A stretch of DNA of 64,000 nt from Quercus robur (lineage: Eukaryota > Streptophyta > Magnoliopsida > Fagales > Fagaceae): positions 31,081,530-31,145,529 of the forward strand of contig NC_065543.1 in the NCBI RefSeq assembly GCF_932294415.1. The letters run 5' to 3'. The notes beneath the pieces are model-generated. The model was not told the origin of the DNA, made no database searches, and worked only from the letters and a program-made list of their open reading frames with translations. Position 1 is the first letter of the stretch; each line of letters opens with the position of its first letter. A program made the translations under genes and the position numbers. Shown in pieces: positions 21,502 to 64,000 of the stretch.

Positions 21502-21589
21502 ACTTCAATAAATAGGGAAACACATGATACATGATTGGAATGAATTAAAAAATGAACTAAACAGGACTATTTTTATTAATAATAATACC

Positions 21590-24866: not shown

Positions 24867-25058
24867 TGCCAGAGTTTCTAATTGTTATAAACCATTCTCA
24901 GCAATGGCCGAGATTTCAGCCTCAGGTCGATGTTGGATGGCCGCTACCAGGCATTGTCTGGCAGTAGATTGACTTCCTAATATTTCCAAAACCTGGCCTC
25001 CAAAGGGATATTTCACCTTTTGGTGAAGAGTGGAGGAGACAGCTCCTAGGGTATGAAG

Positions 25059-26171
25059 CTAGGGTCTACCCATGATGGTCGTATATAGAGAGAAAGCATC
25101 TACAACAATGAAGTCCACCTCCACCACATCCGAGCCAGTCTGCACGGGTAATCTGATCTGACCCTTCGGAATGACTATCTTACCTTCAAAACTCACTAGA
25201 GGAGAACTGTAGGCTGTTAAATTCTCAGGTTTCAAATTTAGCACCTTATATAGGTCAAGATACATTATCTCAGCTACGCTGCCCTGGTCGATCATCACCA
25301 TTTTCACATCGTACCCACCAATTCTAAGTGTAACCACCAAAGCATTATCGTGAGGCTGTATGGTTCCAAGTTTGTCCTCATCTGAAAAACCTAACACCAG
25401 TGGGATGCCCATCTTGACTCTCTTTGGCATTGAACCAAATTCCTCAACTGGATAACGAGATGCTGACATTACTCTGGAGGGGCAAGATCTGGTCCTCCCT
25501 GGGGCAACAAATATGACATTTATCGTGCCTAGAGGGAGTCTCAAAGAAGCATCTCCCTGAAACTCCGAACCCGTTTGGCTTCCCCGGCCACTAGAATGAT
25601 GCAAGAGTTGCTTTAGTTTCCCTTTCCAGACCAGTTGGTCTACATGGTCCCACAAGTTTCTGCAATCCTCAGTAGTGTGTCCATGGTCCTGATGATATTG
25701 GTAATAAAGGTTTTGATTACACCTCATAGGATCTCCTGCCATCTTGTTCAGCCATTTGAAGAACGACTCGTTTTTAATCTTCTCTAGAACCTGTTGTACT
25801 AGTTCTCGGAACTCAACATTAACCACCTTGGTGTTGGCAGATCTTGGCTGCCCAACAAAGTCTTTCCGAGGTCGGTTATTATTATACCGGTCCGACATGA
25901 AATCCCTCCTCTCCTGAGGGATCACCTTAGCCTTTCCTTTCCCCTGCAATTGGTCTTCTTCTACCTTTTTGTACTTGTCAATCTAATCCATAAGTTGACG
26001 CACACTGGTAATAGACTTACCAGTCAGAGATTTCCTTAAATCATGCTCGGCTAGAAGGCCAGCCTTAAAAGTACTAATGGCCACATCATCATAGTCTCCA
26101 TCTATTTCGTTAAACATCTCCCAGTATCTATCCGAGAAGGTCTTCAGAGTCTCCCCCTCTCGCAAAGACAT
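25059..26171 (-). pseudogene. Gag C-terminus and protease remnant of element C
   Basis: It continues the gag interrupted by the solo LTR: SLREGETLKTFSDRYWEMFN, then FKAGLLAEHDLRKSLTGKS and a stop near 25983. A longer open block (25059-25949) has RRDFMSDRYNNNRPRKDF, a Tat-type zinc finger (YYQYHQDHGHTTEDC) with its first Cys replaced by Tyr, and an aspartic protease region with the active-site-like VMIDQGSVAEIMY and VDAFSLYTTIMGRP. Confidence 0.85.
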
Positions 26172-27280
26172 TGTAAGGTTGAATTTATTCAACCATCTAA
26201 TTGGCTTTATTCCGTGCCAAATTTGCTTGTAATTCAGCATTTAGTAACCCTGTATTTAGGTGGGATTGTTGTAAGGGTAGTGAGTGAGATAGAGTGAAGT
26301 TTGCTCAAGAGTGTGCAAGAAAACAGAGTGTCGCGGCTGGGACTCGCGGGTGGACTCGCGGCTGCAAGCCGCCAGAAGCTGCACACGTGCCAAGCATGCT
26401 GGAAGATGAACAGTCATGCTAGCTGGAGCACTACAGGACAAAACAGGACAACTGGCCATACGGTTAACTCGCGACTGGATCTCGCGACTTGGTCGAGCCG
26501 CGAGGTCAAGCCGCGAGCCACCCCTGTTTTGGAAAAACCTGACGTTTCACATTCCTCTCCTCTCCAGTATAAATACCCTTTTAACCCACGATTGAAAGAG
26601 AGCTTCCAGAGAGAATTTTGAGAGAGAAACCCTAAAGAAAAACAAGATTGTTTCACACACAATCCCTACCTTAGAGTCTCATCAAATTCCTCACTCTCTT
26701 CCTCTCCATTGTCAAATCCTTGAGAGGCATTATACCAAACCTGGTTCTCACCATTATCATCTCTGTGAGACAGTCGTTTGGAGTTCTGGGAAGCAGTTAG
26801 GAAGGAGCCAATATTCATTGGTTGATGCTACGGTGTAGTAGCGGAATCCGGGAAGCTAGAAAAGAAAAAGGTTCGGCGCAACCTCGTTGGAGCAAGAAGC
26901 TTGGAGGGCTTAGGTGCATTGGGTAGATTAGGCTTGGAGGGTCTATTGCTGTCCTTGTATCCCAACTGTATTTTCTAGTGGATTGATTACCGCTTGGAGG
27001 GCGGCGGAGAGGTTTTTCGCCGAGGTCTTCGGTTTCCTCTTCGATAACACATCGGGTGTTATCTTTGTGTTTGCATCTTCCTTCCTCTCTATCTCTGCCT
27101 TTACATTATCTGCTGTGGTTTAATTTTATTATGGCTTAGATAGTTGTTTAACCAGTTTCATAGTATAGCATATGTTAAGTTTCCGCACACTAGTTGTTTG
27201 ACATATTGCTTGTGTTGGTTAAGCTGTTTTTGGGGGTCTAAACGTTCAAAAGTGTTTTTGTACACGTTATTGAACTTTCA
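26172..27280 (+). mobile_element. Solo LTR of family A inside the gag of element C
   Basis: 1109 bp, TGTAAGG...TTTCA, co-linear with the element A LTR (TATA box at 26568-26575), with scattered substitutions and small indels. A direct repeat GACAT flanks it exactly (26167-26171 and 27281-27285). No internal region is present. It formed by LTR-LTR recombination after insertion into the older element C. Confidence 0.95.
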
Positions 27281-28056
27281 GACATAGATAATAAGGAACC
27301 CAAAGACCGAGGAAACCTGTTACAAGTGATAAAGCGAGCGCCAAAGGCCCGGGTGAGCTTCTTAAAAGAGTCAATGGAATTCGCCCTTAAACCATTGAAC
27401 CACCTCATCGCCACGGGGCCCAAACTAGATGGAAAAACCTTACACATCAAAGCCTTATCTTTGAAATGAACGGCCATCCTTTGATTGAAGTGACTAACAT
27501 GTTCCACCGGATCTGTTCAACCATTATAAATGGTGAATGTGGGTTGATGGAATCGTCGAGGAAGACTCGCGCCTTCTATGTTTCGTGTGAAGGGTGATTT
27601 AAAGATTTGACTCAACGCCTTGTTCATGGCATCATTCCCCAGGCCTTTGCGAGGCGGGCTCTTATATCTACGTCTATGGTGGTATTCCTCGTTGTGGGAG
27701 AAAAACTCGCTAGGCAAAGTTCTGGATCTCCGTTTATAACTAGCAGCATCTATCTCCTCGAAGGATAGCTTAGAGTTGGGCGATGAATGTCTTCGTCGTG
27801 CGTGGCGCAATTCCCTTTTCAACTCATCGATTTCACGTTACATGTCTCTATCGTTCTTTGCATGGGAAACACGACTCTTCCCTTAAGACTAGCTTTTAAT
27901 AGTATGCGCTGCGTGCGCATTTCCCTCATGATCTCCTCTCCGTTCGAGGCTCCTACACAGATTGCTATGTTGAGACCCCCTTGATTCTGCTTGGTGTAGA
28001 TTCGTATCCACCTGGTGTGGACCTGTCGCTGCCTGGTGTGGACCTACTTGTTCCAT
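27281..28056 (-). pseudogene. gag: Gag N-terminal part of element C
   Basis: The start is the ATG at the complement of 28054-28056 (MEQVGPHQAATGPHQVDTN...), about 45 bp past the primer site. A charged Arg/Ser-rich region (RRRHSSPNSKLSFEEIDAAS, HHRRRYKSPPRKGLGNDAMN) leads to the capsid-like domain (FHQPTFTIYNG, EHVSHFNQRMAVH, FPSSLGPVAMRWFNGL). The frame breaks at least twice (stops near 27517 and after TIKS) and the block is cut at 27281 by the solo LTR, resuming at 26171. This is a gag type I associate with Fagaceae Gypsy elements (recognition only). Confidence 0.85.
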
Positions 28057-28102
28057 CTTAAACGTTGCACCCAAAATACTTTCAGAATAGACCAAGTTCT
28101 TC

Positions 28103-28117
28103 CCACAGACGGCGCCA
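28103..28117 (-). other. Primer binding site of element C
   Basis: On the minus strand TGGCGCCGTCTGTGG begins two bases after the 5' LTR. It is a TGGCGCC-type primer site found in plant Gypsy elements; the exact tRNA was not checked. Confidence 0.75.
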
Positions 28118-28119
28118 AT

Positions 28120-28917
28120 TGTAAGGACTGAATTTGGATTGGACCCAATATAGGATTGGGTTTTAGCCCAATAAGCCCAAACAATGAATTTGTAGAGCGT
28201 GGGTGAAAGAATTAGTTTTATTCAGTAAGAAAGACAATAACAGTTGTTTATTTAAGAGAATCAAACACAAGTAAAGTAAGAAAATCTGTCCTCGACACAG
28301 TCCGAGGAGCTATGTTATAATGTCAAGTTGATAATCAAGGTTACAAAAGTTCAAAGGATTATTACAAAGATTTCTTGGTTTTCTGATCCCCCTCTTTAGA
28401 CCACCTTTCCATGCTATATATTATAATTTTGGTATCATCTCCACCATACACGTGTAGGTTAGGTTCTAGGAACTCCTTCTTGTCCCATCCAACACCTCCT
28501 AGAACCTTTAACTAGCAGCTGTAAGGCTGCTTCACCACTGTTCAGGTATCACCTCCACATTATTGCGGCCAGAGAGTTAGCTAGGATGCATTTAATGTGG
28601 AGGTAGCAGTTTTTGTAGATATTTGTTACCTCCCTCTACTCCTCCCTTATCCAATGTCTGACTTCTAACCATGATGCAACCTTGAAGGATGTTCAGGATG
28701 ATAGGACATTCCTACTGACCTTGGATCTCTATTTCTGAGATGACTTTTCTCCTTGGACATATTTTGGACTATCATATACAATCCTTATTTCTTCTTCTTC
28801 TACCATTCTCATAATAACCTTATTTGACCATTCCCGAACTAGTAAATATCATCGAATTGGGCCATAGGCCCAATTCGTACAATTTTAATAGTACCTTCTG
28901 GCTAACTGGCCCTCACA
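28120..28917 (-). repeat. 5' LTR of element C
   Basis: 798-bp direct copy of 16528-17325. The right TSD AAACT follows at 28918-28922. Confidence 0.92.
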
Positions 28918-47565: not shown

Positions 47566-48402
47566 AAAAACTATAAAATTTCAAACTCATATTTCACTAA
47601 TTATGTCAAATCTCAAACTTAAAATATCACTGCCAATAATAATAATATTGACAATAAACATTTTTAAGAATATATTAATATAATAAGTCATTGCTGTACA
47701 TATCTTTACATTGAAAACTAAAAAGTTGCATTCAAAAAAATAAAATAAAAATAACCTGAAAAAGCTAAAAGGTTCAATTGATGTGATGCAATTAATGCAT
47801 CACATAAGATGGAGCTCAAAACTGAAAAAGAAGTAAAAGCTGAACCATTCAACCCATCTTTTATTTAAAAAAAATATAAGTTTTCAACATTTTCAAGGCT
47901 AGTCACGTGTAAAAGAGCTTAGGAAATTTCAAATAAGATACAAAACAAAGAAAGAAAAACCATGTAGCAATGTTCATTGTTCAGCAAAAAAGAGAAGAAA
48001 TCAGAGCAGTGGAGAAGGACAACAGACAAGAAGAAGAAGAAAAAAAAAAAAAAAAAAAAAAAAAAGGAAGAAGAAGATCTAATTGGTGATGTCAATGTGG
48101 TGGCAACTTGTTGCACTGGGGTTTGTTCAAATCATGCATTTCTTCTATTTTTCCTTCTAGTTTTTGTACCAGCCAAATTTCTCTTTTCCGGCCAAAACGT
48201 CCAGTATACTCCAGTATGGCTGGTTTTGTCCGATATGGGCCGGTATCATTTTGAAGGTGTTTCGGTAACGGTTCATCGACCGGAACAAAAAATTTCAGCC
48301 ATATCGGCCAGTATGGTACGGTTGAGGGAAAATGTGAAAGTTATCAACTATTTTACAATATTTTTTTAAAAATTATTAACGTAGTAAGTGGTTATTAATA
48401 GG
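47566..48402 (-). other. Intron 1 spacer
   Basis: AT-rich, with a run of about 25 A near 48040-48065 and a short GGCC/GGTAT-repeating patch (48190-48330). It ends with ATAGG, the left TSD of element D. No gene supported. Confidence 0.55.
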
Positions 48403-49648
48403 TGTGAGAGTGTCTTTTTTTTCGGGATACTCAGGCCCAAGGATCCCGAGCCTGAATAAAAAAGAAAGGATTTGGTGGACTGGGCCTTGACTCACCGCAG
48501 CTAAATGGCTGTTTAAGAATCAAGTGAATGCAGAGAAATGCTCCTGACAAAAAAGATGACAAACAAGGATATCGAGGAGTGCCAGAAATTAACAACGTAA
48601 GCTTAGAAAGAAAAGAAAAGCAGGATTAGCAAGACGATAAAAAAAAAAGTACTGTGGGGATCCTGGGAATTATGAAACAGTATTTCATTAAAGCATTATC
48701 TGTTTGATTACAACAAGCTTACTAGGACGTGATACAAGGTCCAATCGAGCTCAAAAATTGCAGCCTTGAATGGCTATTTCAGCCTTCAAAACTTGCGAAG
48801 TTTGATTCTCGTTGGATCCGAGTATGTACCATAGTTGCTTTTTCAGGATATCGGGAAGCAATATTTGTTTTCCCTTAGTATTCTCTTTCTGCCTGGACTT
48901 TCTGATAATTTTTTCTAGGGAATCTCTTCTTTCTATTGTTCCTTTCTTTTTTTCTCGCTGCTTTCTTCACAACCCATCCTCTCCTTTTATAGTGGAGTTT
49001 TTCTGGGCGTCTTGGGGAACCGTTGGTTCCCCTGTTTTGGTCTTTTGCAAACAGAGTAGGTTCTGTCCTCATCATCTCGGTAAGTCCCCTTTTCCGTTTT
49101 CTTTCATTCTTTCCTTCTCTTGGTTCTGATTCCTTCGAAAGCTTCTGGTTGGCCATCCTCTTTGGGATGTGCTGAGGTATGCTCTTCTCGGCATCCTCAC
49201 TTCTGGCGTCTTTTACCTTTCTGTTTCTTTCCTATTTGGGCGGAATCCTGTTCTGCTCTTTTGAAATTGTTTTGTTATCATTCTTCTTCCTTGTCTTGGT
49301 TCCCCGACGCCTTTTCTGTCTGTGCCATGAAGGGTCGCTTGTGTTCTTTTGTTTTTCTTGTTTTCTTTTTCTGTCTTCTTTCTATCGATCTGTCCTGGTC
49401 TTCTTTTTCTTGGCGCTTATTGATGGTGCCTGAGGATCCTTGCGTTTTATACTTTGCTGTGACATTCTCTCTCTCTTTTTTTTTGTTGCTTTTCCTTTTC
49501 TGGGCTTCGGGATCCTCAGGGCCTTTCGCATAATCCCTTTGGACTTGGTCTGAGTTTTCTTTTTTTTTTTTGGGCTTAACTCACTCTTTCTTGGGCTCAG
49601 CTTATTCTTTCTTGGGCTTATTTTACTGTGATTTTTTAGACCTCAACA
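48403..49648 (-). repeat. 3' LTR of element D
   Basis: TGTGAGAGTG...CTCAACA, near-identical to 60820-62066. Open frames within it (for example 49120-49533) occur in both LTR copies and show no known domain. Confidence 0.95.
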
Positions 49649-49660
49649 TTTAGCCCCCCG
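49649..49660 (-). other. Polypurine tract of element D
   Basis: On the minus strand GGGGGGCTAAA directly precedes the 3' LTR. Confidence 0.8.
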
Positions 49661-50125
49661 AGCTCGTGGGTTGCCTGAAGCCCACGCGTGAGTGATTTAG
49701 GTTTCCTTAGGTTTTTGTGGGATCCCAGCTCCCTTACGCTGCTTTTGGTCGCTTCCCTTCTTTTTTTTTTTTTGCGTGTTGTGTTCTTTTATAATTATTA
49801 CTTTTCGCAGCTTCCTCTTTACATGGGACGTGGCAGTTGAGTATTTGAGATAAAACTCTTCTACCCACTTATCTCGTTTCCCATTGCTTCTCATTAATAA
49901 CTGCTGATTAACCCCCTCTTCAAATTAAATTTTTTGCAACTGGCGCGTCTTTTCATAAACTGTTTCTCCCAACTGCTACTTGCGCCTTTATTGTAGTCGT
50001 TTCACCTTATCATTTTGCTTCTCTGAACTTTTTTCATTCCCTGAGTTTTTCTTCTTCTCTGTTACTCTGGTCTTCCCTTTTTCGCACTTTCAATTTCTTT
50101 TCTTCTCAGAGTGTGTGCTGTTTCC

Positions 50126-53100
50126 ATGGCTTCTTCTTCTTCTCGAAAGAGGAGAGAGCGTACCCCCAGTCCTTCTGAGGGGGAAGGTTCTTCTGGTTCT
50201 GCTCCGAGCGATTCCCGCGAGGTTGCTGAACGTCCGGCCTTCCCTTTACGGGATCCTTGGTATTCTCTCAGTTTATTTTTCCCTCATATATCTCATGGTG
50301 AGGCTCCTCCATCCCCTCACGTTTGGCTATTTTCTGGCCAAGCGGGTTTCGCTGGTTCCGCCCAGGTTCCTGACCCTAGAGAGATTTTTGATCTCCAGAT
50401 CAGACAAGGAATCCGAGAGGCGGTTCCTATTTTCTTCGATTTTGTTCCGGGAAAGATTCAGGGTTGGCCTATATGGGTAGACAAAGAACTGTCTGATGCT
50501 GAGTTTGTGGGTCGTTTGGAGCGCGCCGGCATCCTAAAGGCAGTGGCTATTTCCAGAAACCTTGAGGGTTTCAGAGACGCCAAAGGGCTCAGGCATCTGG
50601 TACGTCGTTGGTGTCCTTCCCTTCACACTTTTTTCTTTTCTACTGGTGAATTGACAATCACCTTGGAGGATGTGGTTAATAACTTCCTCCTCCCGGTGTT
50701 TGGTGAAGAAAATCCCTTTGATATTGATCTTTCTGGTGAGGATCTCGTGGTGGAAGAGAAATTATTTGGTCATTTTGGTGGTCGCTCCGCCTCTCCTGGT
50801 GGTAAGCCGGCTAGGATGGGGAGATGGGTGATGACCCTCTCTCGTGAAAAGGATAAGGAAGTGAGGTGGGCCGGTTTCCTGGCCTTTTGGCTTAGTAAAT
50901 TTTTGTTCAGTGAGTTCCCTAGGTACGGAGTTAAGTCTTCATTTTTTCCGTTGGCAATCAAGTTGGCTCGGGGTACCCAGTATCCTTTGGCCCCTCTGTT
51001 CTTGGGTCATGTTTATTCTCAATTGGACCAGCTTCATGGAGATGAGGCTGAGGGTGACTCTTGCTATGTGATCACTTCATCTCTTCACTGTGCCATTCTT
51101 CAGATTTTCATGTGGGACCGTTCTGCAGCTACTTTGGCTAAGTGTAGAAATTTGAAGTTTGTGAAGGACAAGTTCCAAGGATCCCCCGACATAGTGAAGG
51201 GTCTTTGTGGCAATTCTACTGATGCCTTTCCCATTATTTTTCGTTGGATTAGCTTAAAAGGTGGTGGCCTCAATCTTGTGGAGTTGTTTGACCAAGCAGG
51301 GAGCTTATGTTGGAGATCTCCTCGTGAGTTTGGTCCTGGCTTTGTGTGTGATTCTGTGTTGTCTTCTTTTTTATCTTCAACAGGTAATACCTTCGACCTG
51401 CGCCGTGGTGATGATGGCAGTCTGGCTTATCTTGCCTGCATTAGCCCCTCCTGGCTTCCAGTGCCCTCTTCAAGTGGCCCAAAGTACACTCATTATTCAG
51501 CACACCGGGTGCTCCGACAGTTTGGTTTTGATCAAGACATTCCGCCAGTTTTCAAGGATGTGGTGCCATCCCTTCCTTCCTTGGATCCTTTCTTGAGGCT
51601 GCAGGCCTTTTCTTATTGGTCGCGGAGGAGCCCCCAGTTCGTAGTGCCTAACTCCCAGAGAGGAGTCTTTGCTTCCAGTGGCTATACCGGTTATTGGAGA
51701 AGAGTACAAAAATCTTTTGTTGACTATGTTGGCACTGGTACAATTCGGGAAGTCTCGAATTCTAGCATTGTTTCTGCTCCGACAGCTAATAGACGTTTAT
51801 CCCTTCCTACTGCTGGGATTGTTTCTGCTGCTGCAAGCAGTAAGACTGGGTTTGCAGAGTGGCATTCCTCCAGGGGAGGTTGGGTGACTTACGGGCAGGA
51901 TTTTCCTGAGGCCTGGCTGGGTGACAGTCTTATCATTGGTACCTCCTCTAGGGTGCCCATCAAAAAGGGTGCAACAGAGACAATTAGTGCTGCTACTACT
52001 AAAGGTAAGGATGTTAAGTTGAAGAAAATGAAAGCTGCTGATGTTGGCGAAAGTGCAAGGGGTGTGGAGATAGGCTCTGAAGCAAAAAGAAGGAAAACGG
52101 GGAAATCTCAAGCACACTTGGCATCTCACGAAGGCAAGGATGTCAGGGAACCTTTAGTTTCAAGGACCCGGAAGAAGACCAAGGTAGAGTCTTCTTTTCC
52201 CCAGGTTCCTGTGACTGCTTCAGTCCATGGTTCTTTAGGATCCTCTGGTTTGGTATCCCAGCCTCCTTTAGGACCCTCTGGGCGTACTCGTAGTAAGCAA
52301 AAGACTTCCAGAGAATCTGTAGAGAGAGAGAGAAGGGCAAGACTTCTTTCCTTCTTCTCTCTTTTTTTTGTTGCATTCATTTTCTATCTTTGCTGACGAG
52401 TGGTGATTTCCTTTGCAGTCCAAGCGCAAGTCTGATTATAAGAAGGGTAAGAGCCAATCTTCTGGAGACGACGTGGTACGTGTGTTCCCCCTTCTTCTAT
52501 TCTTTCTGTGTTGCTAGCATTCCTGCTGTTTTTTTTTTTTACTTAGTATTGCCTTCTCTGCTTCTCCTTTCTTTAGGTGGAGGTATCCCCTCCTGTGACT
52601 GGCAAGGCTCTGGGGGAGGAAGCTACCACAGCTCTTTCTGTCATTTTTCCTGTTATGGGGGAGGAGCCCCCTACTGATGACCCCGCTGAGGAAACTGGGC
52701 AGCCGATGCAAGGTTCCCAGGATTCTCAGGATCCCAAAGCTTCTAGGGTCCCATCATCTCAAAGTCCCCATCTTGCACGCACTCCTAGTCCTATCAGGAC
52801 TGTGTTTCCTCAATCCTTGTCAGATAAGGATGCTTTGGGAGACACTCCTTTATCCAAACAAACAGGTAAACCTTGTTTCTTTTGAAGTGGCGTTATGCTT
52901 TACTTTCTTTTCCAGTTTCTCTTGAGTTCCTTCTTTTTCCTTTTAGGTCAAACCAGTGAGAAACCTGCTCCCAGTGTTGCCTCTTCTTTAGAATCAGAGA
53001 GCTCAGAAGGTGAGTGTAAGCTGCTCCATCGTGTTTTCCTTTTTCTTTCCCCCCTTTCTCTTTTTTATATATATGGCGAAGCCCCCTGCATCTATCCCTT

Positions 53101-54006
53101 CCTTTAGCCAATTTGCCATCGGTCCTTCACCTTTTCTTCAACTTGCCTTATGTTCCTTCCCAAAATCTTCGGGGACGTCAGGAGATCAGGAAGAAGAGGT
53201 TCTGCCTCAAGAAACTGGAACCGGTTTGTTTCTTCTAAATCTGTTCTTCCTTTTCTTTTTCTTCTCTTTTTTTTTTCTTTTTGAATATTGATACAGGCTT
53301 TGCAGGTTCTGAGCCTGTTATCCCTGAAGGAATTGTGAGACCTGTTGAAGTTGCTGACCTTCATCCAGAGCAAAAGGCTGCAAGTCCTCAGGTTTCTGCA
53401 AGTGGTGACGCGATGATGGGGGATGCCTCGAAGGTGGCTGCCTCAGATCTTGATTCAAAGCTTTCTTCTTTCCTGGCTCGCTTCGATCTTTTGGAATTCA
53501 ACAGTCTTCCTGCCAGCCACTTTCATGTCTTTGGGTCTTCTTATGGCAGCTTCCTGCGCTTCTCTGTTCCTGTGGAGGGCTTGCCACTGCTAGAGAGCCT
53601 GCTCAAGAGTCACGGGGATTTTACCAGTGGCTTCAGGGGAGGCATTTTTCTAGGCAATATTTTGATGGAGTTGCTGTGTGCTGTGCTAATTTCTCTAAGG
53701 AATTCCTCTGTTGATTCGTTGTCTGAAGAAAAGCTTCTGGGATGGAGAGGGGTGGTGCAGGACCTTCTAGAGGCCAAGTTTAATTTGTCTTTCCTGCTGG
53801 ATCACTTGCGTCTGCTGGCTCATATGCTGTTTCAAAGGCAATCATTCAAGAGTATAGACACTGAGATAGTTGTTGCTGAGGAAGCTTTGGCTCATGCTCA
53901 CAAAGTTTTACAAGATTTGAAAGTCAAGCGGCAGAGGATCCTTTCTTCTTTGGCTGTTCCTGCCATTTCTCCAGATGCTTCTCTGTTGGCCGGCCTCATT
54001 CCTTAG
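50126..54006 (+). CDS. Antisense plant mobile domain (PMD) gene of element D, six exons, about 1117 residues
   Basis: Exons 50126-52318, 52419-52475, 52577-52865, 52947-53009, 53182-53223 and 53297-54006 give one uninterrupted frame of 3354 bp with matching phases. Introns are short (77-173 bp) and T-rich with GT/AG ends; the first donor (TCT|GTAGAG) is the weakest. Start is MASSSSRKRRERTPSPS. Residues about 60-420 form the PMD: ELSDAEFVGRLERAGILKAV, RRWCPSLHTFFFSTGELTIT, LEDVVNNFLLPVFGEENPF, FLAFWLSKFLFSEFPRYGVK. The tail is Ser/Lys-rich with nuclear-signal-like SEAKRRKTGK and SKRKSDYKKGK, ending in a helical, probably coiled-coil segment (VVAEEALAHAHKVLQDLKVK). Host PMD proteins (MAIN/MAIL1) are nuclear and affect transposon silencing; whether this one does is unknown. 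It converges on pol. Confidence 0.85.
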
Positions 54007-54800
54007 CTTTTTTTTTTTCACTCATATGAACAATTTGGGGTTGTATAATTTTTTTTTAAAACATTGCTCTGCTCTTTGCTTTCTCTTTTGTGCTTCAAAA
54101 CTGCTTCTTATTTCTTAGTATGTGAATCTGCCTTTTTCCTTGGATATATATTGCCTTTACTTTCTCGTGACTCTTTTCTTTTCTGAGTCCTGGACCATGG
54201 TTCCCACAGGCTTCACTGTAAGTTCTGGTCCAGGTACCTGGTGATTTATTGTGCAAGTACTGAACTGGGTACACTAGTATCCTTTTCTATGTATGTTTTT
54301 TTTTTTGAGATATGGTCCCAGTTCATGAACTTTGACAGGTTCCCCCTTTGCCAAGTGCTAGGCTAGGTATCCTAGATATTTTCTTTTATTCTGTGATCCT
54401 AGACCTATGCACTTGGGACTGTTTGTGGGATATCCGAAATTATTTGTGAGGTGGATCCTGGGCCATATGTAAAAGGGTATTACACATTCTCCCTTTTTTT
54501 TTTACTCAGGTATCCTTCCTTGAATTTATCCATATTTGGTCTTTGTAGTAAAGAAAAACTTAAATGCTGCAGAAACAGGAATTCCATTAAAACATGATCA
54601 TTTTTTTTTAGGAACAAAATAAAAAGTCTATTGGCGCAGCATTGACCACAAAGTGTCAATCTATCACATGTTCCTGAACAAAATTATCTTAGACCAGAAT
54701 TCTTGATAAAGGCTGAAAATAAAAAGACAAAAATAAAAAGGAACTTAGCGGATAGTGAAGCTGGTGAAAGGACCCTGAGGTACTGGGGGTCCCCTTGTCC
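54007..54800. other. Convergent intergenic region of element D
   Basis: Between the ends of the antisense PMD gene and pol. T-rich, no ORF. Repeated phrases around GGTCCTAG/GGTATCC (54220-54460) but no clear tandem period like the one in element C. Confidence 0.55.
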
Positions 54801-57800
54801 TTATGCATAATATTGCTTCAGCCATTTCCCGTTTATGGGTTCTGTCAGGACTGTTCCATCTTCTTTGGCAAGGTAATAATATCCACTTTCATGAGCTGCA
54901 TTGATGATGTAGGGTCCTTCCCATTTTGGGGTGAATTTGGAAGGCCCTGGCAGGTTCCTCCTCACGTGCTCCGCCATCCTTAGCACTAATTGCCCTTTGG
55001 TGAACACTCTTGGGCGTACTGCTTGTGCATATGCTCTGGTCATTCTTTGCTGGTATCTTTGGCTCCTTTTCTTGGCCAGTTCCCTTTCTTCTTCTACTCC
55101 TTCCAGATCTACTAATCTCTTTTCATTGCTTGCGTCTTCACTTTCTCCCTAATTTTCCTCAAGAACTACCCTTGGTGTAGGAATGATTAACTCCACAGGG
55201 CTGATGGCCTCTGTTCCATAAACCAGGGAGAATGGGGAGAATCCTGTGGCTGTCTTTACAGAGCTCCTACATGCCCAAAGCACATCTGCCAAATGGTCAC
55301 TCCATTTTCCTCCATACTCATGCTTCATTTTCTTAAGGATTTTTAATATTACCCTGTTAGTAGCTTCAGCTTGGCCGTTTCCTTGTGGGTAGTATGGGGT
55401 AGATCTTCCCTGCTTGATGTGGTATGCTTCAGTTAATCCCTTCACATCTTTGTTTATGAATGGGGTTCCATTGTCGCTGATCAATCTTCTGGGGATCCCG
55501 AATCTTGTAATGATGTGGTCTCGAATGAAATTTGCTACAGCTGCTCCAGTAGCTTTTTTCAAAGGGATGGCCTCTACCCATTTTGTAAAGTACTCCGTGG
55601 CTGCCAGGATCCATATGTAACCATTGGATGGAGGATTTATGGGCCCTATGAGATCGAGCCCCCAAGTATGAAAAGGCCATGGTGTCGTCATATCCTGTAG
55701 GACATTTGGGTGAGTGTGAATCGCATCCCCTAGGACTTGGCAAGCATGACATGTTTTGACCAGCTCCTCAGAGTCTCTTTTCATCGTTGGCCAGTAATAC
55801 CCCAACAACAGTAACTGCTTGTGCAGCCTTCTCTTCCCTGGGTGACTTCCGCAATCTCCAGAGTGCACCTCTCTGACTACTTCTCTAGCTTCCTTCGGTC
55901 CCAGGCATCTGAGGGGATCCCCGTGGTATCCTTTTTTGAACAAAATGTCGTTCTGCAAGAAATACCTGCACGCTAGTTTCTTGAGCTTATGGGCCAGTTC
56001 CTTGTCGGTTGGCAGGATACCCTGAGCCAGGTATCCTATGAAAGGAACCCGCCAATCTTCCGTAACAAACACAGCGTAGCTTTCTTCTTTATCGATTGCC
56101 AAACGACATTCCTTACATTTCCCCTGTATGACTGCTGCTTCCCTGTCCATATCTGGCCAGTAATACCCCATGCGTTGCATCCTCCTGTATAGGCTGACTT
56201 TTTCTGCAACTCCACATGTTTGGGCGTGTAATTCTTCTAATTTCAACTTTCCTTCCTTCTCGGCGATACATCTAGACAGTATTCCTCCTGGCAATCTTCT
56301 GTACAATTCTCCTTCTATCTGAGTGTAATCCATTAGCTCTTTGATGTTCCCTCTAGGGTTTACCTCTTTCATCCTTTCTTTGACTTCGTCCCTCCAATCC
56401 CACTGTTTGGATCCCCCTGGGTACATCCCTTGGAGGATCCTCACAATAGAATGTTCCTGCCTTCCTATTTTTATCAGTGTATCTCTCCCATCAAATGGTA
56501 TTTGGGATCCCAGGGTGGCGAGAGCATCTGCGAACCTGTTTTCACTTCTTTGAGTGTATTCTATGCTGAAGGTTTGAAACTCCATTTCCAGTCTTTGTGC
56601 CCAAGTCCTGTAGGCTGCTAAGCTTTGTTCCCGTAATGCAAAGTCACCTTTTACTTGGGAGACTACAAGATTAGAATCTCCTAGCACTCTCATGTGTTTC
56701 ACTCCTATGCTGAGTGCTATAGTCAACCCAGTCAAGTATGCCTCATACTCAGCTGCATTATTAGAGCATGAGAAACCAAGCTTGAAGGACAGGGGCATGA
56801 CATCCCCATTTTCACAGCTTAGCACAATTCCTACCCCATTTGAAGTTGCTGTAGCTGACCCGTCAAACCTCATAGTCCATCTCTTCCCTGGGATCTCCAT
56901 CACTGCTACCTCACCAGGGATTTCTTCGCTCAGCGGGCCTTCTTCCTTCCCTGGGAATTGAGCTAGCAAATCTGCTATGGCCTGGCTCTTTACAGCCTTG
57001 GGAGTTCTTGTGCCTATATCATATTGTGAGAGCAATACTAGCCATTGTGACATCCTTCCCATGAGGAGGGGCTGGTGCAGGAGTGCTTTTATGGGGTGGG
57101 ACTTGGTTACCAAGAGGATTTGGTGAGCTGAGAAGTACCTCTTCAACCTTTGGGAGGCATAAACGATTACTAGGCAGGCTTTCTCTATCCTGGGGTACCT
57201 GGTCTCGGTATCCTTGAGTGTTCTGCTTACATAATATATAGGCTGCTCATTTCCTTGGTCATCTTCTTGTGCCAGCAAAGCTCCTATTGCCTGAGAGTTC
57301 GATGCTAAGTATAGCAACAGAGGTCGCCCACGTACTGGTGCCTGGAGGGTGGGCAGATGGTTCATAATGCTTTGAATTCTTTGAAAAGCTTCCTGCTGCT
57401 CTGTTCCCCAGGTGAATTCATTTCCCTTTTTCAGTAATTTTGATAAGCCTGCCGTAGCTGAGGCTAAACCAGGCACAAACCTCCTGATATAGGAGACTCT
57501 TTCCAGGAAGCTTTTGAGTTCTCTAACAGTAGTTGGTCTTCTCATCGTGGCAATAGCTGTGGCCTTGGCTGGATCCACGCTTATGCCTTTGTGATGTACC
57601 AGGAACCCAAGGAACTTTCCAGCAGACACTCCAAAGGCGCACTTCATGGGGTTCATACGTAACTTGTATTTCCTGCATCTTTCAAAGACCTGCTCAAGTA
57701 CTTGGAAATGTCCTGTTCTGGTTTTCGACTTGACCACAATATCGTCTACATAATCTTCCATCTCCTCATGCATCATGTCATGGAAAATGGCTGTCATGGT

Positions 57801-58532
57801 CCGTTGATACGTAGCCCCCGCATTCTTGAGGCCAAAGGGCATTACAGTGTAGTAAAAGTTCCCAATCGGAGTTCTGAATGCCGTCTTTTCTGCATCTTTG
57901 GCTGCCATGCGAATTTGATTGTACCCACTGTACCCATCCATGAACGAGAACATTGAGTTTTCTGTAGCTGAATCTACAAGGAGATCGATATTGGGCAAGG
58001 GGAACTCATCTTTAGGACATGCCTTGTTCAAGTTGCGAAAGTCTACACAGCAGCGGATTTGACCATTCTTCTTCTTCACAGGTACAATGTTGGACAGCCA
58101 TTTTAGGTGTTGGATGGGTTTGATAAAACCAGCTGTTAGTAATTTCTTGACTTCTTGGACTATTTGAGCTTCTACCTCAGTGTGGAAGACCCTGGCTGGT
58201 TGGACTACTGGCCTCACCCCTGGTTCCACATTAAGAGAATGAACTACCAACTCCGGGTCTAGACCAGGCATCTCATCATAAGTCCATGCAAACACATCTC
58301 TGTATTTTTGAAGTAAGGCTACCAGTTGTTCTCTTTCTTGAGCCACCAATTGACTGCTAATGAAAACAGGTTTCCGGGATCCTGGTTCTGTTCCCAGGTC
58401 TACTTCCTTCAGTTCTTCCTCGGGCTGAATCTGGGCCTCCTTAACTGGTTCTTCTGGGATTTCTTCTTGGGCCATCATGCAGCTTGGTGGTCCGGGACCT
58501 TCCTGCACAATGCATTCGGGTCCCGCGCACCT
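54801..58532 (-). CDS. pol: Pol polyprotein of element D (RT, two RNases H, integrase), one internal TAG
   Basis: In frame with gag-pro after a TGA. RT: DVFAWTYDEMPGLDPELVVH, VDFRNLNKACPKDEFPLP, MPFGLKNAGATYQRTM, catalytic YVDD (EDYVDDIVVKSK), FLGFLVHHKGISVDP. RT-linked RNase H: PIYYVSRTLKDTETRYP. Second, archaeal-like RNase H: MRFDGSATATSNGVGIVL, CSNNAAEYEAYLTGLTIAL, LGDSNLVVSQVKGDF. Then two H2C2-like modules (ELHAQTCG...CKECR and VHSGDCGSHPG...CHACQ) and the integrase core (WGLDLIGPINPP, RLISDNGTPFINKD, YYPQGNGQAEATNR). A TAG (complement of 55149-55151) follows RVVLEEN. The same frame continues through RQRMTRAYAQAVRPRVF... and KWEGPYIINAAHESGYYY to a final stop at 54801. Apart from the TAG it looks complete, and all catalytic residues are present. 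Confidence 0.93.
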
Positions 58533-60758
58533 TCACAAACGATAAATTAGCCTTCCCCCAGGTTCCCGCACCACCACACATTCTCGGGATCCTGAAGAGC
58601 TGGGCTCCCTCTTTTGTCTTTTTCTTTCTAAAAGGTTTCTCAGGTCACGGGTGCCCCTTCCTCCTTCTTCTTCTTCTAGGATAGGTGCCCCCGGGGTCCC
58701 TGGGGTGGGGTTCTCATCATCTGGCTCCAACTCATCATAAAACATCGTTTCTGCAAAGTTCACTTCTCCCTGGCTGAAAGGATTATGATTGGCAGGGATC
58801 CTTATGGGCCTCCCATTCAGTCTCCCTTTAATGCATTGATGGAACGTGGATGGAATAAGGCGATGTTTATGAAGCCACGGGCGTCCCAGCAGCACGTGAT
58901 AAGAAACTTCTGCATTAATCACATGAAACCTTGTCAAAGCTACTATTGGCCCTACCCTTAAGGCTAGCTGCACGTATCCTTCTGTTGCTTCCACCGATCC
59001 TCCAAATCCTGTTATCTCCATGGGGGTCCCCAGGATCCTTCTGTCAGCTAAGCCAACAGCTTCCAAGGTACTCAAAGCTATGAGGTTGAGTGATGCCCCT
59101 GTATCCACCAGTGCTCTCCTGACTTGAACGCCGTTTATGGTGGCCATTAGATAAAGGGGTCTACGGTGGTCTGGGTGCTCAATCTCCATATCCTCATCAG
59201 TGAAAGTTATTGTATTGGTTGTCTCCAGGAAAGCTCGACTAGCATGTGACTCAGCTGTAAAACATTCCATCCCTGAATCTGCTGCTATACTCATGAGAGA
59301 CTCTGTGGCTACTCTTCTTGCTTCTGGTCCGAATCCTAGTTGATTGAATAGTGACCTGAACTTAGGATTCTTCTGGAGGGTCTTGACTGTACTCGGGTGG
59401 AAGGATCCTTCAGATTCTCCTGCCTCTGCTGGGTTCCCATGTATTACTACTGCTACCACCCCTTTTCCTTTGTGGTTAGGTAAGGGGTTCCTCTGCACTT
59501 CTGGTTCCTTCTGAGTGAGTTCCAAGGTTCCTTCCCTCAACTTTTTGTGGAAGAGCCTGCGAAGGGTCCAGCAGTCCTTAGTGGAGTGCTTCACATAATT
59601 ATGGATTCTGCAAAATAAAGGATTCTTCCTTTCTTCCTCGGTTGGTGGCCTGGACACAGTGAATGGCCTGACAACCCCATCTCCAATCCATTTGTCTAGG
59701 ACATGGCTTAGCTCCTCAGCTGTGCATGGGATCACTGGCGGTTCCTCAAACACCTTCCCATCTGGTCTCTTCCTTTTCTCTCCTGCTGATGCTGTCATAG
59801 CTTGGGATGCGGGCAGCCTTTTTGTTCTCATAGTTTGCGCTGTCCTTCTGGTTCTCTGTAGCAGGTCAGCAAACTGTGTGATACATAAATTTTCAAGGTT
59901 GAGCCTGTAATCAAAAAGCATGTTGGCTATACAGGTTTCCACGAGCTCCTTTTCTTCATGGTCTCCATAGCAGTCTAGAGACACATCTTCGAATCTTTTA
60001 ATAAACTGAACAGGATCTTCTCCAGGTCTCTGCCTCACCATCTGCAGGTTCTGGAAAGTGATTTTGTCTTCACCAGGGTAATATTTGGCGCAGAATTTTT
60101 CCATCATCTCATCCCAGGTCTTGATGGACCCGGGTCTCAGCGTGGTGTACCAGGTGTATGCCCTATCTACCAAAGATTTGGCAAATTCCCTTAGACATAA
60201 TTCTTTATCTCCTGCATAAGGGCCCATAGTGTGGACAAACCTGCTCACATGTTCCACGGCACTTCCATTCCTTCCATCGAAAGGATGGAACTTTGGGGGT
60301 TCGTATCCCTTAGGATATGGTTTGCCAAGGAGTTCTGGAGGGAACGGGGGATCCCGAGAGAATTGCTTGGGGATCCCTGATAGTTTTTCCCTTTCTTGCT
60401 CCAAGAGGGCATTGACGTCTGCCAGTGTCAAATACTGAGGGTTGGCTCTTCCTCCTACTACTGACCCTCCTTCTGGCTGGGTCCCATCTTGGTGGCCAGT
60501 AGGGGGAATGTTGTCTCTGACTTCCTGTGTCCTGCCTTCTTTGAGAAGACGAACTTCTTGCTCCAAATCCTTTAACATTGCTGTCATCCTGGCCATTAGG
60601 TCTGGTTCCTGTCTTGCGTGTCTTTGTTCCGACACAACCTCCTGTTCCACCAAGGGTATCCCACCTCCTTGCCTGGAGACTTCCTCGTTTTCTCCTACAG
60701 GCTCAGAGGCCGTAGGTGGCACATTGGTTCCTTTGCTGTTTCTTTGTCTTGGAGGCAT
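58533..60758 (-). CDS. gag-pro: Gag-protease of element D, intact
   Basis: I start it at the ATG complementary to 60756-60758 (MPPRQRNSKGTNVPP), about 40 bp past the primer site; the longer frame up to 60857 runs into the LTR. Gag has a basic, coiled-coil-like N-terminus, the retrotransposon gag domain (FHPFDGRNGSAVEHVSRFVH, WYTTLRPGSIKTWDEM, RPGEDPVQFIKRFEDV) and a Tat-type zinc finger (FCRIHNYVKHSTKDCW). The protease follows with active-site VDTGASLNLIAL and VLLGRPWLHKH. It ends RLIYRL then TGA (58533-58535). Pol continues in the same frame after the stop, so either UGA readthrough or a recent nonsense change is involved. No other lesions seen. Confidence 0.93.
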   Translation of the reverse strand: MPPRQRNSKGTNVPPTASEPVGENEEVSRQGGGIPLVEQEVVSEQRHARQEPDLMARMTAMLKDLEQEVRLLKEGRTQEVRDNIPPTGHQDGTQPEGGSVVGGRANPQYLTLADVNALLEQEREKLSGIPKQFSRDPPFPPELLGKPYPKGYEPPKFHPFDGRNGSAVEHVSRFVHTMGPYAGDKELCLREFAKSLVDRAYTWYTTLRPGSIKTWDEMMEKFCAKYYPGEDKITFQNLQMVRQRPGEDPVQFIKRFEDVSLDCYGDHEEKELVETCIANMLFDYRLNLENLCITQFADLLQRTRRTAQTMRTKRLPASQAMTASAGEKRKRPDGKVFEEPPVIPCTAEELSHVLDKWIGDGVVRPFTVSRPPTEEERKNPLFCRIHNYVKHSTKDCWTLRRLFHKKLREGTLELTQKEPEVQRNPLPNHKGKGVVAVVIHGNPAEAGESEGSFHPSTVKTLQKNPKFRSLFNQLGFGPEARRVATESLMSIAADSGMECFTAESHASRAFLETTNTITFTDEDMEIEHPDHRRPLYLMATINGVQVRRALVDTGASLNLIALSTLEAVGLADRRILGTPMEITGFGGSVEATEGYVQLALRVGPIVALTRFHVINAEVSYHVLLGRPWLHKHRLIPSTFHQCIKGRLNGRPIRIPANHNPFSQGEVNFAETMFYDELEPDDENPTPGTPGAPILEEEEGGRGTRDLRNLLERKRQKREPSSSGSRECVVVREPGGRLIYRL

Positions 60759-60799
60759 TCTCTGTGAAGGGATTGTTTCTTCCTTCTTCTTTGCCCAGT

Positions 60800-60816
60800 C
60801 CCCAGCGGAGTCGCCA
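60800..60816 (-). other. Primer binding site of element D
   Basis: On the minus strand TGGCGACTCCGCTGGGG starts three bases after the 5' LTR. It is a type reported for Ogre/Tat elements (thought to match an arginine tRNA; not verified here). Confidence 0.8.
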
Positions 60817-60819
60817 AAA

Positions 60820-62066
60820 TGTGAGAGTGTCTTTTTTTTCGGGATACTCAGGCCCAAGGATCCCGAGCCTGAATAAAAAAGAAAGGATTTGGTGGACTGG
60901 GCCTTGACTCACCGCAGCTAAATGGCTGTTTAAGAATCAAGTGAATGCAGAGAAATGCTCCTGACAAAAAAGATGACAAACAAGGATATCGAGGAGTGCC
61001 AGAAATTAACAACGTAAGCTCAGAAAGAAAAGAAAAGCAGGATTAGCAAGACGATAAAAAAAAAAAGTACTGTGGGGATCCTGGGAATTATGAAACAGTA
61101 TTTCATTAAAGCATTATCTGTTTGATTACAACAAGCTTACTAGGACGTGATACAAGGTCCAATCGAGCTCAAAAATTGCAGCCTTGAATGGCTATTTCAG
61201 CCTTCAAAACTTGCGAAGTTTGATTCTCGTTGGATCCGAGTATGTACCATAGTTGCTTTTTCAGGATATCGGGAAGCAATATTTGTTTTCCCTTAGTATT
61301 CTCTTTCTGCCTGGACTTTCTGATAATTTTTTCTAGGGAATCTCTTCTTTCTATTGTTCCTTTCTTTTTTTCTCGCTGCTTTCTTCACAACCCATCCTCT
61401 CCTTTTATAGTGGAGTTTTTCTGGGCGTCTTGGGGAACCGTTGGTTCCCCTGTTTTGGTCTTTTGCAAACAGAGTAGGTTCTGTCCTCATCATCTCGGTA
61501 AGTCCCCTTTTCCGTTTTCTTTCATTCTTTCCTTCTCTTGGTTCTGATTCCTTCGAAAGCTTCTGGTTGGCCATCCTCTTTGGGATGTGCTGAGGTATGC
61601 CCTTCTCGGCATCCTCACTTCTGGCGTCTTTTACCTTTCTGTTTCTTTCCTATTTGGGCGGAATCCTGTTCTGCTCTTTTGAAATTGTTTTGTTATCATT
61701 CTTCTTCCTTGTCTTGGTTCCCCGACGCCTTTTCTGTCTGTGCCATGAAGGGTCGCTTGTGTTCTTTTGTTTTTCTTGTTTTCTTTTTCTGTCTTCTTTC
61801 TATCGATCTGTCCTGGTCTTCTTTTTCTTGGCGCTTATTGATGGTGCCTGAGGATCCTTGCGTTTTATACTTTGCTGTGACATTCTCTCTCTCTTTTTTT
61901 TTTGTTGCTTTTCCTTTTCTGGGCTTCGGGATCCTCAGGGCCTTTCGCATAATCCCTTTGGACTTGGTCTGAGTTTTCTTTTTTTTTTTGGGCTTAACTC
62001 ACTCTTTCTTGGGCTCAGCTTATTCTTTCTTGGGCTTATTTTACTGTGATTTTTTAGACCTCAACA
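60820..62066 (-). repeat. 5' LTR of element D
   Basis: 1247 bp, near-identical to 48403-49648. The right TSD ATAGG is at 62067-62071. Confidence 0.95.
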
Positions 62067-62836
62067 ATAGGTAAAAAAATAAAATATTAATAGTAAAAGT
62101 ATAGGAGAACCATTAAAAATTAGTTACAACAATTATTTGTAAAAATTTTGTAAAATCGTTTGTGTAAGTAGAATTACTATGTAAATGGTTATATTAATGG
62201 TTACATAATGACTTAAAAAAAATTTATTAAAAAAAAAAATTTGCAGCAGTAATAGGGACCAGGATCATATCTCATTCAGTAGACATATTGCTGATAATTA
62301 ACATTTTTTGGTTCTCACTTCTCAGGGCATAAAATTTTTGAAAGAGATGAGCCCGTCCATTGAAAGTGAAGAAGAATTTAATCGATTTGGATTTTAAATT
62401 TCTAGTGACCCAAGAATTCTATAGAAGGAAACTATTACGAAATTTTGGAGGAAAACATTTACGAAAGGAGATTCTTCCATCGTGATTTGGAGGAAAACAT
62501 TTCCATAATAACCCAATGGTTGATTGCATAGACAAAACATAAATTCAAGAAAAAGAACAGAACATTTATGCCAAAATTTCGTAGTAGTTGTCACTAGAAA
62601 TTTAAAATCCAAATCGATTAAATTCGAGGAGCAATTCACTCGATTAATTTATTTTACCAGTAGAAAACACAGAAAAGTCTTGCAAGTAATTAACATAAGA
62701 AGAAGAGTCGAAAATCAAACACAATTCCCAAGAAATTGTATTCACGGAAAACAAAACAGCAAAACATAAAAGATTATGCAGAGGAGAACAAATTGTTCAG
62801 TTAGAGACTAGTAGTGTTATATGGGAAAGTACATAC
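62067..62836 (-). other. Intron 1, exon 1 side
   Basis: AT-rich. It contains the 36-bp perfect inverted repeat listed separately. No coding. Confidence 0.6.
62374..62625. repeat. 36-bp perfect inverted repeat with 180-bp loop
   Basis: The left arm 62374-62409 (GAATTTAATCGATTTGG...CTAGTGAC) is the exact reverse complement of 62590-62625. The loop has a doubled TTTGGAGGAAAACATTT (near 62443 and 62479). No TSD resolved. Possible foldback element or hairpin-RNA source. Confidence 0.85.
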
Positions 62837-63804: not shown

Positions 63805-64000
63805 TGTGAGAGTGCCTTTTTTTGTGACACTCAGGCCCAAAGATCCCGGGCCTAATAAGAGGTTTGGTGAACCAGGTCTTGACTCACCGCAGCTAACAAG
63901 CTGTTTAAGAATCAAGTGATGCACAGGGGATGCTTCCTACAATACAAGTAAAATGACAAATAAGGATATTCGTATGGAGAGGCATGCCAAAACAACAAGA
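63805..64000. repeat. Start of a diverged D-family LTR, cut by the window end
   Basis: TGTGAGAGTGCC...CAGGCCCAAAGATCCCGGGCC, then GGTTTGGTGAACCAGGTCTTGACTCACCGCAGCTAA, clearly homologous to 48403 onward but with many differences. It belongs to another, older relative whose body lies to the right. Confidence 0.85.

Follow-up and report, generated by a model that had tools for sequence, protein, structure and literature searches.

An antisense, six-exon plant mobile domain gene under purifying selection in a young Gypsy retrotransposon of Quercus robur

The window, the whole stretch of 64,000 nucleotides of Quercus robur DNA that was analysed, contains a Ty3/Gypsy element of the Tat clade, Ogre/Retand type (48403..62066, minus strand), delimited by its LTR pair, its target site duplication and the order of its Pfam domains. 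The target site duplication ATAGG is present in matching copies at 48398..48402 on the left and 62067..62071 on the right. Comparison of the two element ends by blastn placed the 3' LTR at 48403..49648 and the 5' LTR at 60820..62066, both on the minus strand. Over 1248 columns, the LTRs show 2 mismatches and 3 indels of one base each, and the duplication is intact, in agreement with the recent insertion that an earlier note on this DNA had claimed. A PBS-like stretch starting with TGG (60799..60816, minus strand) adjoins the 5' LTR; the PBS of Ogre elements is reported to be complementary to tRNA-Arg (PMC9289625).

The ORF list, Pfam matches and copies define a gag-protease (gag-PR) frame, open from stop to stop (58533..60908), and an open pol frame RT-RH-aRH-INT (55149..58532), both on the minus strand. 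The two frames are in the same phase with one stop codon between them, which is present in all 15 copies examined. A spliced intron separating the gag-PR and pol ORFs is a trait of the Ogre subclade. In the window copy, a premature stop interrupts the C-terminus of the integrase, which continues in the same frame at 54801..55148 (minus strand; ORF list and copies); 14 of the 14 other copies examined are free of it, a lesion to be set against the active cargo suggested in the earlier note. Neither the conserved gag-PR/pol stop nor this window-specific one was mentioned in that note. Along the element, Pfam matches follow the order RVT_1, RT_RNaseH, RVT_3, Integrase_H2C2, rve. RT_RNaseH (403-504) and RVT_3 (556-673) lie in one frame, which identifies the additional archaeal-type RNase H (aRH) of the Tat clade. 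In addition, RVT_3 precedes the integrase (879-1049), and an aRH between RH and INT is described as the mark of the Ogre and Retand lineages (PMC6317226). Antisense TRP28 (PF04195), reported in 97% of recent Retand clusters (PMC11963269), was absent from the Pfam matches of the spliced protein described below at E up to 1, so that this Retand trait was not found. Judged by its sequence, the element is thus a young Tat-clade Gypsy retrotransposon, of Ogre/Retand type by its pol domain order.

A gene encoding a plant mobile domain (PMD) lies on the plus strand, antisense and convergent to pol. Its exons, defined by reading frame and copies, are located at 50126..52318, 52419..52475, 52577..52865, 52947..53009, 53182..53223 and 53297..54006, the sixth including the stop codon. 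Joined, they give 1117 codons and a stop, with GT-AG introns. A leader (49649..50125, plus strand) extends from the 3' LTR to the antisense ATG and by its position is the presumed site of an antisense promoter; among 29 copies it has 26 gap patterns, and internal substitutions reach 12.8 per 100 bp. From the single sequence the exon chain is not unique, with 30 GT-AG chains of equal length in the intervals tried. Comparison of copies settled it through splice sites, exon lengths and gap patterns: 29 of 30 loci have GT-AG ends on each of the five introns, exon lengths equal those of the window in 28 of 30 while intron lengths vary, and 2 gap patterns fall in 3354 exon bp versus 67 in 527 intron bp (29 distinct loci). 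The gene is complete in 18 of the 30 loci, without stop or frameshift and with all splice sites. A chance open frame is ruled out by the exon/intron gap pattern and by the wrong-frame control given below. The copies thus show that the six-exon gene convergent to pol is real. This confirms the single, stop-free 1117-codon frame and its antisense placement in a young element, both proposed in the earlier note. In the element-sense RNA the five introns lack GT-AG ends, and antisense introns can therefore survive reverse transcription.

The spliced protein matches the PMD profile PF10536 over residues 136-524 (50531..51697, plus strand; E 1.8e-32) with 113.3 bits against a cut-off of 34.9, so that the clear PMD of the earlier note holds in a profile search. 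The nuclear-signal-like patches also stand: three basic patches (residues 7-12, 654-662 and 734-742) are largely conserved, being identical in 28, 23 and 27 of 29 copies, respectively. A second conserved domain, weakly PEARLI-4-like, occupies residues about 931-1076 in exon 6 (53443..53880, plus strand). It was found by phmmer in 65 of 82 relatives, and in none of 120 proteins from the search with a genic oak PMD. With PEARLI-4 (PF05278), the window's C-terminal piece scored 22.9 bits, below the cut-off of 29.9; four of four pieces of the domain matched with E of 1 or below, the best at 3.8e-6, and among 37 full-length rows two matched at E up to 0.01. A region search of a large protein set with this domain covered 5213 candidates, none of which matched at E up to 0.001, a null that reflects the limit of word sharing, because the domain is present in known relatives.

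The gene belongs to a multi-copy family. The full-length copies listed number 36, that of the window and 35 others with 95-98% identity, and exon 6 occurs in at least 150 places. In a PMD tree, the window protein clusters with 81 relatives (support 1.0), and 61 further PMD rows fall outside this clade; this genic-type side comprised every second row of P0082-P0202 (61 of 121, P0082 being from the first search), and named PMD-A references and Arabidopsis MAIN lay outside the tree. The branch between TE-type and genic-type PMDs measures 1.09, and the window piece shares 20-24% identity with genic-type rows. Relatives occur in Fagus, and PMD genes are present in the same genome beyond this element family too. 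Two viral-contig stretches fitted a pattern of exon 1, but neither is a relative. PMD frames are reported in 57% of Ogre elements, with no orientation given for them there (PMC6317226).

Substitutions among 29 distinct copies were counted after dropping L036 (a copy of L035) and columns inserted relative to the window; changes on codons that were already stops were left out. The copies compared were the best-scoring ones, a choice that favours intact genes. On internal branches, the PMD gene shows 171 synonymous (S) and 56 nonsynonymous (N) changes and no stop, and on terminal branches 255 S, 269 N and 12 stops. For the PMD alone, internal branches hold 75 S and 5 N, with dN/dS of 0.02-0.03. 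A tree that included introns gave 169 S and 57 N on internal branches. A tree-free test, leaving out positions with more than two bases, compared 138 S, 64 N and 0 stop among shared variants with 137 S, 191 N and 12 stop among singletons (Fisher p 2e-10 for the whole gene, 1e-6 for the PMD part); the C-terminal part alone showed no significant excess in this test (p 0.83). In two wrong frames used as controls, N prevailed among shared variants. In 15 copies, internal branches held 69 S and 18 N for pol, and 89 S and 25 N for the PMD gene. Constraint on the PMD gene is thus close to that on pol, and its PMD part is more constrained than pol taken in its entirety. In the rate comparison over 29 copies, the terminal rate for 54801-55500 was set aside, as this region lies at the ends of the fetched loci. 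Overall, the dN/dS comparison among copies that the earlier note had suggested shows, from substitution patterns, purifying selection on the six-exon gene along lineages that transposed.

VANC21 is the anti-silencing protein of VANDAL21, a Mutator-like transposon of Arabidopsis. The VANC21-DNA complex, PDB 9LNJ, was the only strong fold match of our better structure model, aligning VANC21 residues 305-616 with protein residues about 109-469 (50450..51532, plus strand) over 279 residues at 6% identity. This single model is moderate (mean pLDDT 58.9, with 217 of 568 residues reaching at least 70), and helical folds can reach high Z by chance. The fold search with a poorer model (pLDDT 38.5) gave no VANC21 match and nothing useful. 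At the sequence level, the VANC domains DUF1985 and DUF287 had no match in the spliced protein at Pfam E up to 1, and VANC21 was not among the rows of the PDB profile searches, which thus gave no sequence-level link. A PDB sequence search with the first 531 residues had no match; profile A3 gave eight rows, the five displayed being low-complexity linker matches, and the PMD-only profile A5 gave two weak unrelated ones. DUF1985 itself has two sub-threshold matches in the same genome. The main domain is thus predicted to fold like the DNA-binding part of VANC21, a protein reported to bind a motif of 9 bp that is frequent in its element and to cause demethylation there (PMC5735166).

A short palindrome is dense in the oak element as well. 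GGATCC occurs 27 times in 12,417 bp of the element, versus 5.2 expected (z 9.8; the 400 commonest words of each length were examined, simple words excluded), whereas no non-simple 6-mer exceeded z 6.3 in 100 simulations. Between 48626 and 54800 there are 12 sites, which are retained in 97.3% of 28 other copies, above matched 6-mers (stratified p 0.0007). The window copy lacks two further positions that are occupied in 25 and 20 of the 29 copies. Outside the element, the window holds 12 GGATCC in 50.3 kb, with no enrichment; nor is there any in a single control, L053, a PMD-bearing stretch of a different kind (2 versus 1.1 expected in 4.5 kb), in which no match to the C-terminal domain was found. 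GGATCC is possibly a target of the PMD protein. We give about equal weight to a cause unrelated to this protein, such as a packaging or priming signal, another host factor or mutational bias. Such a cause would suit sites spread over the LTR, coding and non-coding parts, the rise of GGAACC/GGTTCC (25 versus 9.7, z 4.9) and the similar ratio of GCCGGC (only 3 occurrences), but fits poorly with the retention above matched 6-mers and with the lack of enrichment outside the element and in L053.

We propose, at somewhat less than an even chance for the whole, that this is the element's own antisense accessory gene, whose product would act in the nucleus, bind element DNA and counter silencing of its family. 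The proposal draws on exon/intron conservation, selection, the predicted fold, GGATCC and the basic patches. The gene would be transcribed from a promoter in the leader and its transcript spliced, the introns being tolerated during reverse transcription of the element. The product would enter the nucleus, bind short sites in its own element, possibly GGATCC, and counter silencing via its C-terminal domain or, by an alternative route, by forming dimers with host PMD proteins of the MAIN/MAIL type or by displacing them. Transcription, splicing, nuclear entry, binding and counter-silencing are steps that we infer. The role of silencing modifier, already suggested in the earlier note, may now be considered together with the VANC21 fold match. 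The use of PMD proteins by TEs against silencing has been put forward before (PMC8616336), as has the same idea for MULEs (PMC5418596).

Rather unlikely, in our judgement, is a nuclear accessory protein of retrotransposition that serves nuclear entry, chromatin targeting or integration and plays no part in silencing. DNA binding and internal-branch selection about as strong as that of pol would fit this, and the products of other antisense ORFs are described as nuclear or as carrying DNA-associated domains (PMC7264820, PMC11963269). However, the fold match is with an anti-silencing protein, and integration needs no dispersed motif throughout the element. We know of no interaction with integrase or gag, which also counts against this explanation.

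We find it unlikely to a greater degree that the protein is a silencing mimic, titrating or poisoning the host MAIN/MAIL/PP7L complex through PMD-PMD contacts with no DNA recognition of its own. It shares its PMD with host proteins, MAIN and MAIL1 are reported to interact with each other and with PP7L and to silence TEs (PMC7156037), and counter-silencing by TE-encoded PMDs has been suggested (PMC8616336). Yet TE-type and genic-type PMDs are distant, and a general titrator leaves the conserved motif unexplained. A function of the antisense transcript itself, by dsRNA or transcriptional interference with gag-pol, is very improbable: the arrangement is convergent and antisense RNAs regulate other elements (PMC7264820), but the codon-level selection on the PMD, with the exon frame kept while introns change freely, largely refutes it. 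A recently captured host gene or passive passenger is scarcely credible, for although PMD genes also exist outside this family, the earlier note's cargo, if taken to mean a captured gene, is contradicted by 36 copies, Fagus relatives, a separate clade with an extra domain, the Ogre PMD frames and purifying selection, and passive cargo is ruled out by dN/dS, copy number and the tree.

The proposed anti-silencing gene makes testable the function of Tat-type antisense genes and that of the PMD. The predicted fold points to a mechanism that can readily be assayed, through DNA binding and through sequence-specific demethylation, and the conserved GGATCC palindrome offers a first candidate target. 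Antisense placement would account for the persistence of a gene with five introns in an element that passes through RNA, as these introns lack GT-AG ends in the element transcript. More speculatively, and with less confidence than in the proposal itself, the PMD could be a DNA-binding domain of VANC fold, and the gene a long-carried, intron-bearing antisense anti-silencing gene of Ogre-type Gypsy elements, each family being marked by a different dispersed and conserved target, GGATCC in this case. The VANC of Mutator-like elements, Gypsy PMD and host MAIN/MAIL would then form one superfamily on both sides of an arms race. If true, this would unite VANC anti-silencing, PMD silencing proteins and retrotransposon accessory genes.

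Among known systems, MAIN, MAIL1 and MAIL3 carry the same domain but are host genes that promote silencing, which for MAIN and MAIL1 weighs against an anti-silencing role here. Among the 120 proteins found with a genic oak PMD, to which this comparison was confined, none has the C-terminal domain of the window protein. VANC21 is likewise a TE-encoded accessory protein with a short motif dense in its element. However, VANDAL21 is a DNA transposon and the window element an LTR retrotransposon; the VANC21 motif is a 9-mer found mainly in non-coding tandem repeats, whereas the candidate palindrome occurs in coding and non-coding parts alike, which weighs against the parallel. The antisense ORFs of Retand, Grande (gene23) and RIRE2 similarly lie between pol and the 3' LTR, are conserved within families and are suspected of a nuclear role (Vicient and Casacuberta 2020; Vicient 2025); in Retand they encode TRP28 (PF04195), whereas the window gene has a PMD and no TRP28 match. 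The PMD-encoding Ogre elements described by Neumann et al. 2019 (PMC6317226) are also of the Tat clade; their aRH lies between RH and INT, and their PMD frame is separate from gag-pol. A further parallel is with the Gypsy-only PMD-A1/A2 clades of Ikeda et al. 2017 (PMC5418596), as the window PMD groups with its relatives apart from genic-type PMDs. The ORFs predicted in the 2019 survey were unspliced and 250 codons or longer. Compared with these Ogre and PMD-A reports, the oak element adds a six-exon structure demonstrated by its copies and a second conserved domain.

The antisense PMD gene (50126-54006, plus strand) is almost certainly a functional protein gene of the Tat-clade Ty3/Gypsy element that carries it. 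It comprises six exons and 1117 codons on the strand opposite to the element, between the 3' LTR and pol. In the intervals tried, 30 GT-AG chains gave the same 1117-codon length; hence, splicing is fixed not by the single sequence but by the copies. A DNA search of the oak genome (785.7 Mb, with the window on its contig 39) identified at least 36 full-length copies, namely that of the window and 35 others sharing 95-98% identity, plus two partial ones, a lower bound since 38 of 480 candidates were scored. Thirty loci were compared, 29 of them distinct (L035 and L036 are duplicate element loci). GT-AG dinucleotides were present at all five introns in 29 of the 30 loci, exon lengths were the same as in the window in 28, and the frame and splice sites were complete in 18. 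Across the 29 loci, only 2 gap patterns fell in 3354 bp of exons versus 67 in 527 bp of introns; the 477 bp leader contained 26 and the 794 bp 3' region 97. Exon 6 was found at 150 or more places in the genome, with an internal stop in 11 of these (best-scoring 150 of 774 candidates). The earlier note had read an intact six-exon gene here, and this observation stands, on stronger grounds than that reader could show.

Substitutions were mapped by parsimony on a tree of the 29 distinct copies, in which internal branches represent ancestors that transposed and terminal branches mostly decay after insertion. The analysis draws on the best-scoring copies and takes no account of recombination between them, and transitions are raised by methylation. 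Internal branches carried 171 synonymous (S) and 56 nonsynonymous (N) changes and no stop, with a dN/dS of 0.11-0.16 (kappa 1 to 11.7), and terminal branches 255 S, 269 N and 12 stops (0.35-0.52). Selection along the internal branches, for which the earlier note had proposed dN/dS across copies as a check, is purifying and not neutral. By part, internal counts were 29 S/7 N for residues 1-135, 75 S/5 N for the PMD (0.02-0.03), 43 S/29 N for the linker (0.23-0.33) and 24 S/15 N for the C-terminal part (0.21-0.34). For pol, 15 copies gave 69 S/18 N/0 stop on internal branches (0.08-0.12) and 159/140/19 on terminal ones; on the same copies, the PMD gene gave 89 S/25 N/0 stop (0.09-0.14) and 149/168/9. 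The whole PMD gene is therefore about as constrained as pol. The PMD is more constrained than pol as a whole, whereas the counts do not imply an excess over the RT part (8 S/0 N on internal branches, 15 copies). A tree-free test agreed: variants in at least two copies comprised 138 S, 64 N and no stop, and singletons 137 S, 191 N and 12 stops (Fisher p 2e-10 with stops grouped under N). In each of the two wrong frames, shared variants were mostly nonsynonymous (153 N and 41 S; 141 N and 37 S). Applied to each part, this test reached significance in the N-terminus, the PMD and the linker, whereas the C-terminal part did not reach it (p 0.83). What is new is the proof, from comparison of copies, of a selected antisense PMD gene with six exons; the kind of gene was already known. 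Later papers cite Steinbauerova et al. (2011) on PMD in Gypsy elements, and the antisense position may already be described there.

The element (48403-62066, minus strand) is delimited by LTRs of 1246 and 1247 bp, which differ over 1248 aligned columns by 2 mismatches and 3 indels of one base each, and by an ATAGG target duplication at both flanks. LTR divergence K is 0.0016 (2 substitutions at 1245 sites; 95% range 0.0002-0.0058). With annual per-site substitution rates between 1.3e-8 and 2.5e-9, insertion would date to about 62,000 to 321,000 years ago (point estimates with wide limits). The gag-PR and pol frames are open, in the same phase, and separated by one stop codon (58533-58535) that all 15 copies examined have in identical form, which suggests readthrough or splicing rather than decay. 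The window copy carries a premature stop close to the integrase C-terminus; none of the 14 other copies examined has it, and 11 of these carry other stops within the examined stretch. Pol shows the order RT, RNase H, second RNase H (RVT_3), integrase; with the lineage rule on RNase H order versus integrase in a passage of PMC6317226, this makes the element of Ogre or Retand type. In the pol frame (55149-58532, minus strand), a second putative integrase H2C2-zinc-binding-like stretch was seen by eye at residues ~780-830, upstream of the profile-matched one. At 63805-63969, a fragment shares 78% identity with the initial 170 bases of this element's LTR in its plus-strand orientation. Elsewhere in the oak genome, at C2:17817184-17833449, C4:28997756-29010934 and C35:15182988-15196171, same-orientation copies lie ~12.4-12.5 kb apart, close to the element length minus one LTR; these are likely tandem arrays formed by recombination between LTRs.

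A protein search, which scored just those 7984 candidates with the most words in common, listed 82 relatives of the gene product at 27-41% identity (70 Fagus sylvatica predictions, 11 from JGI, 1 from NCBI). A tree of 143 PMDs places the window's domain and 81 relatives in one clade (support 1.0), parted by a branch of 1.09 from 61 other PMD rows (60 from the search with a genic oak PMD query, plus protein P0082). The exon-6 part (residues 926-1117) was found in 65 of the 82 relatives by phmmer (E down to 2e-26) and in 67 by profile, versus none, by either method, of the best 120 of 1007 genic-type PMD proteins. The 15 relatives missed by both are all shorter than 1000 residues, 11 being JGI frames of 766-899, and may stop short of that part. 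The C-terminal part gives a weak match to PEARLI-4 (PF05278), with the window below cut-off. This second conserved domain of the antisense gene is a new point. Genic-type PMD genes also form a cluster on oak contig C37 (13.17-13.42 Mb), with 8 near full-length and 2 partial PF10536 matches.

According to passages of PMC5735166, the 9-base motif to which VANC21, the anti-silencing protein of Arabidopsis VANDAL21, binds occurs densely in VANDAL21 itself; unusual short words were therefore sought here. Among the non-simple 6-mers looked at, GGATCC had the largest excess, in coding and non-coding parts separately. Counting a single LTR, it occurs 27 times within 12,417 bp, versus 5.2 expected from a second-order Markov model. 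Its z of 9.8 compares with a top value of 6.3 for any non-simple 6-mer over 100 simulations; GGAACC/GGTTCC, next in rank among non-overlapping words, reached 4.9. Outside the element, the window contains 12 in 50.3 kb. By reading frame, the sites split 6, 6, 3 in gag-pol and 2, 0, 2 in exon 1. The 12 sites in 48626-54800, to which the conservation figure is confined, were kept in 97.3% of 28 other copies on average; for other 6-mers matched in G+C, the figures were 85.7% in coding and 78.5% in non-coding sequence (p 0.0007 by stratified resampling). GGATCC is also present at two positions where the window copy lacks it, in 25 of 29 copies at one and in 20 at the other. A PMD-bearing stretch of a different kind had 2 versus 1.1 expected, and eight genic PMD loci of ~4.1 kb had 0 or 1 apiece. 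A conserved palindrome enriched in the element is new; that the PMD gene product binds it would be a guess. An older, different Gypsy element (~20850-28420; pol-like stretches at 26-42% identity), containing a repeat whose 7 register copies from 20850 are spaced 81 bp apart, showed no PMD match and, by 4-kb bins, no GGATCC excess.

The predicted structure tips slightly towards the PMD being a VANC-fold DNA-binding domain, and an anti-silencing role of the gene product can be proposed tentatively. No paper on the VANC21-PMD fold link, or on a spliced antisense PMD gene with a C-terminal domain, was found in the literature searched, outside which lie most subscription journals and, for the fold link, the paper behind the VANC21-related PDB entry 9LNJ. 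In passages of earlier work, 57% of Ogre elements are reported to contain PMD frames (PMC6317226), and among the atypical domains of plant Gypsy consensuses PMD is the one found most often (PMC9289625); the Gypsy-only clades PMD-A1/A2 (PMC5418596) and antisense aORFs in other Tat elements (PMC7264820, PMC11963269) are also described. Anti-silencing use of PMD was proposed, for MULEs, in a passage of PMC5418596, and a passage of PMC8616336 presents TE-encoded PMDs as a counter-silencing strategy and mentions VANC21. Beside these known systems, the predicted link between the PMD and VANC21 folds is a new point.
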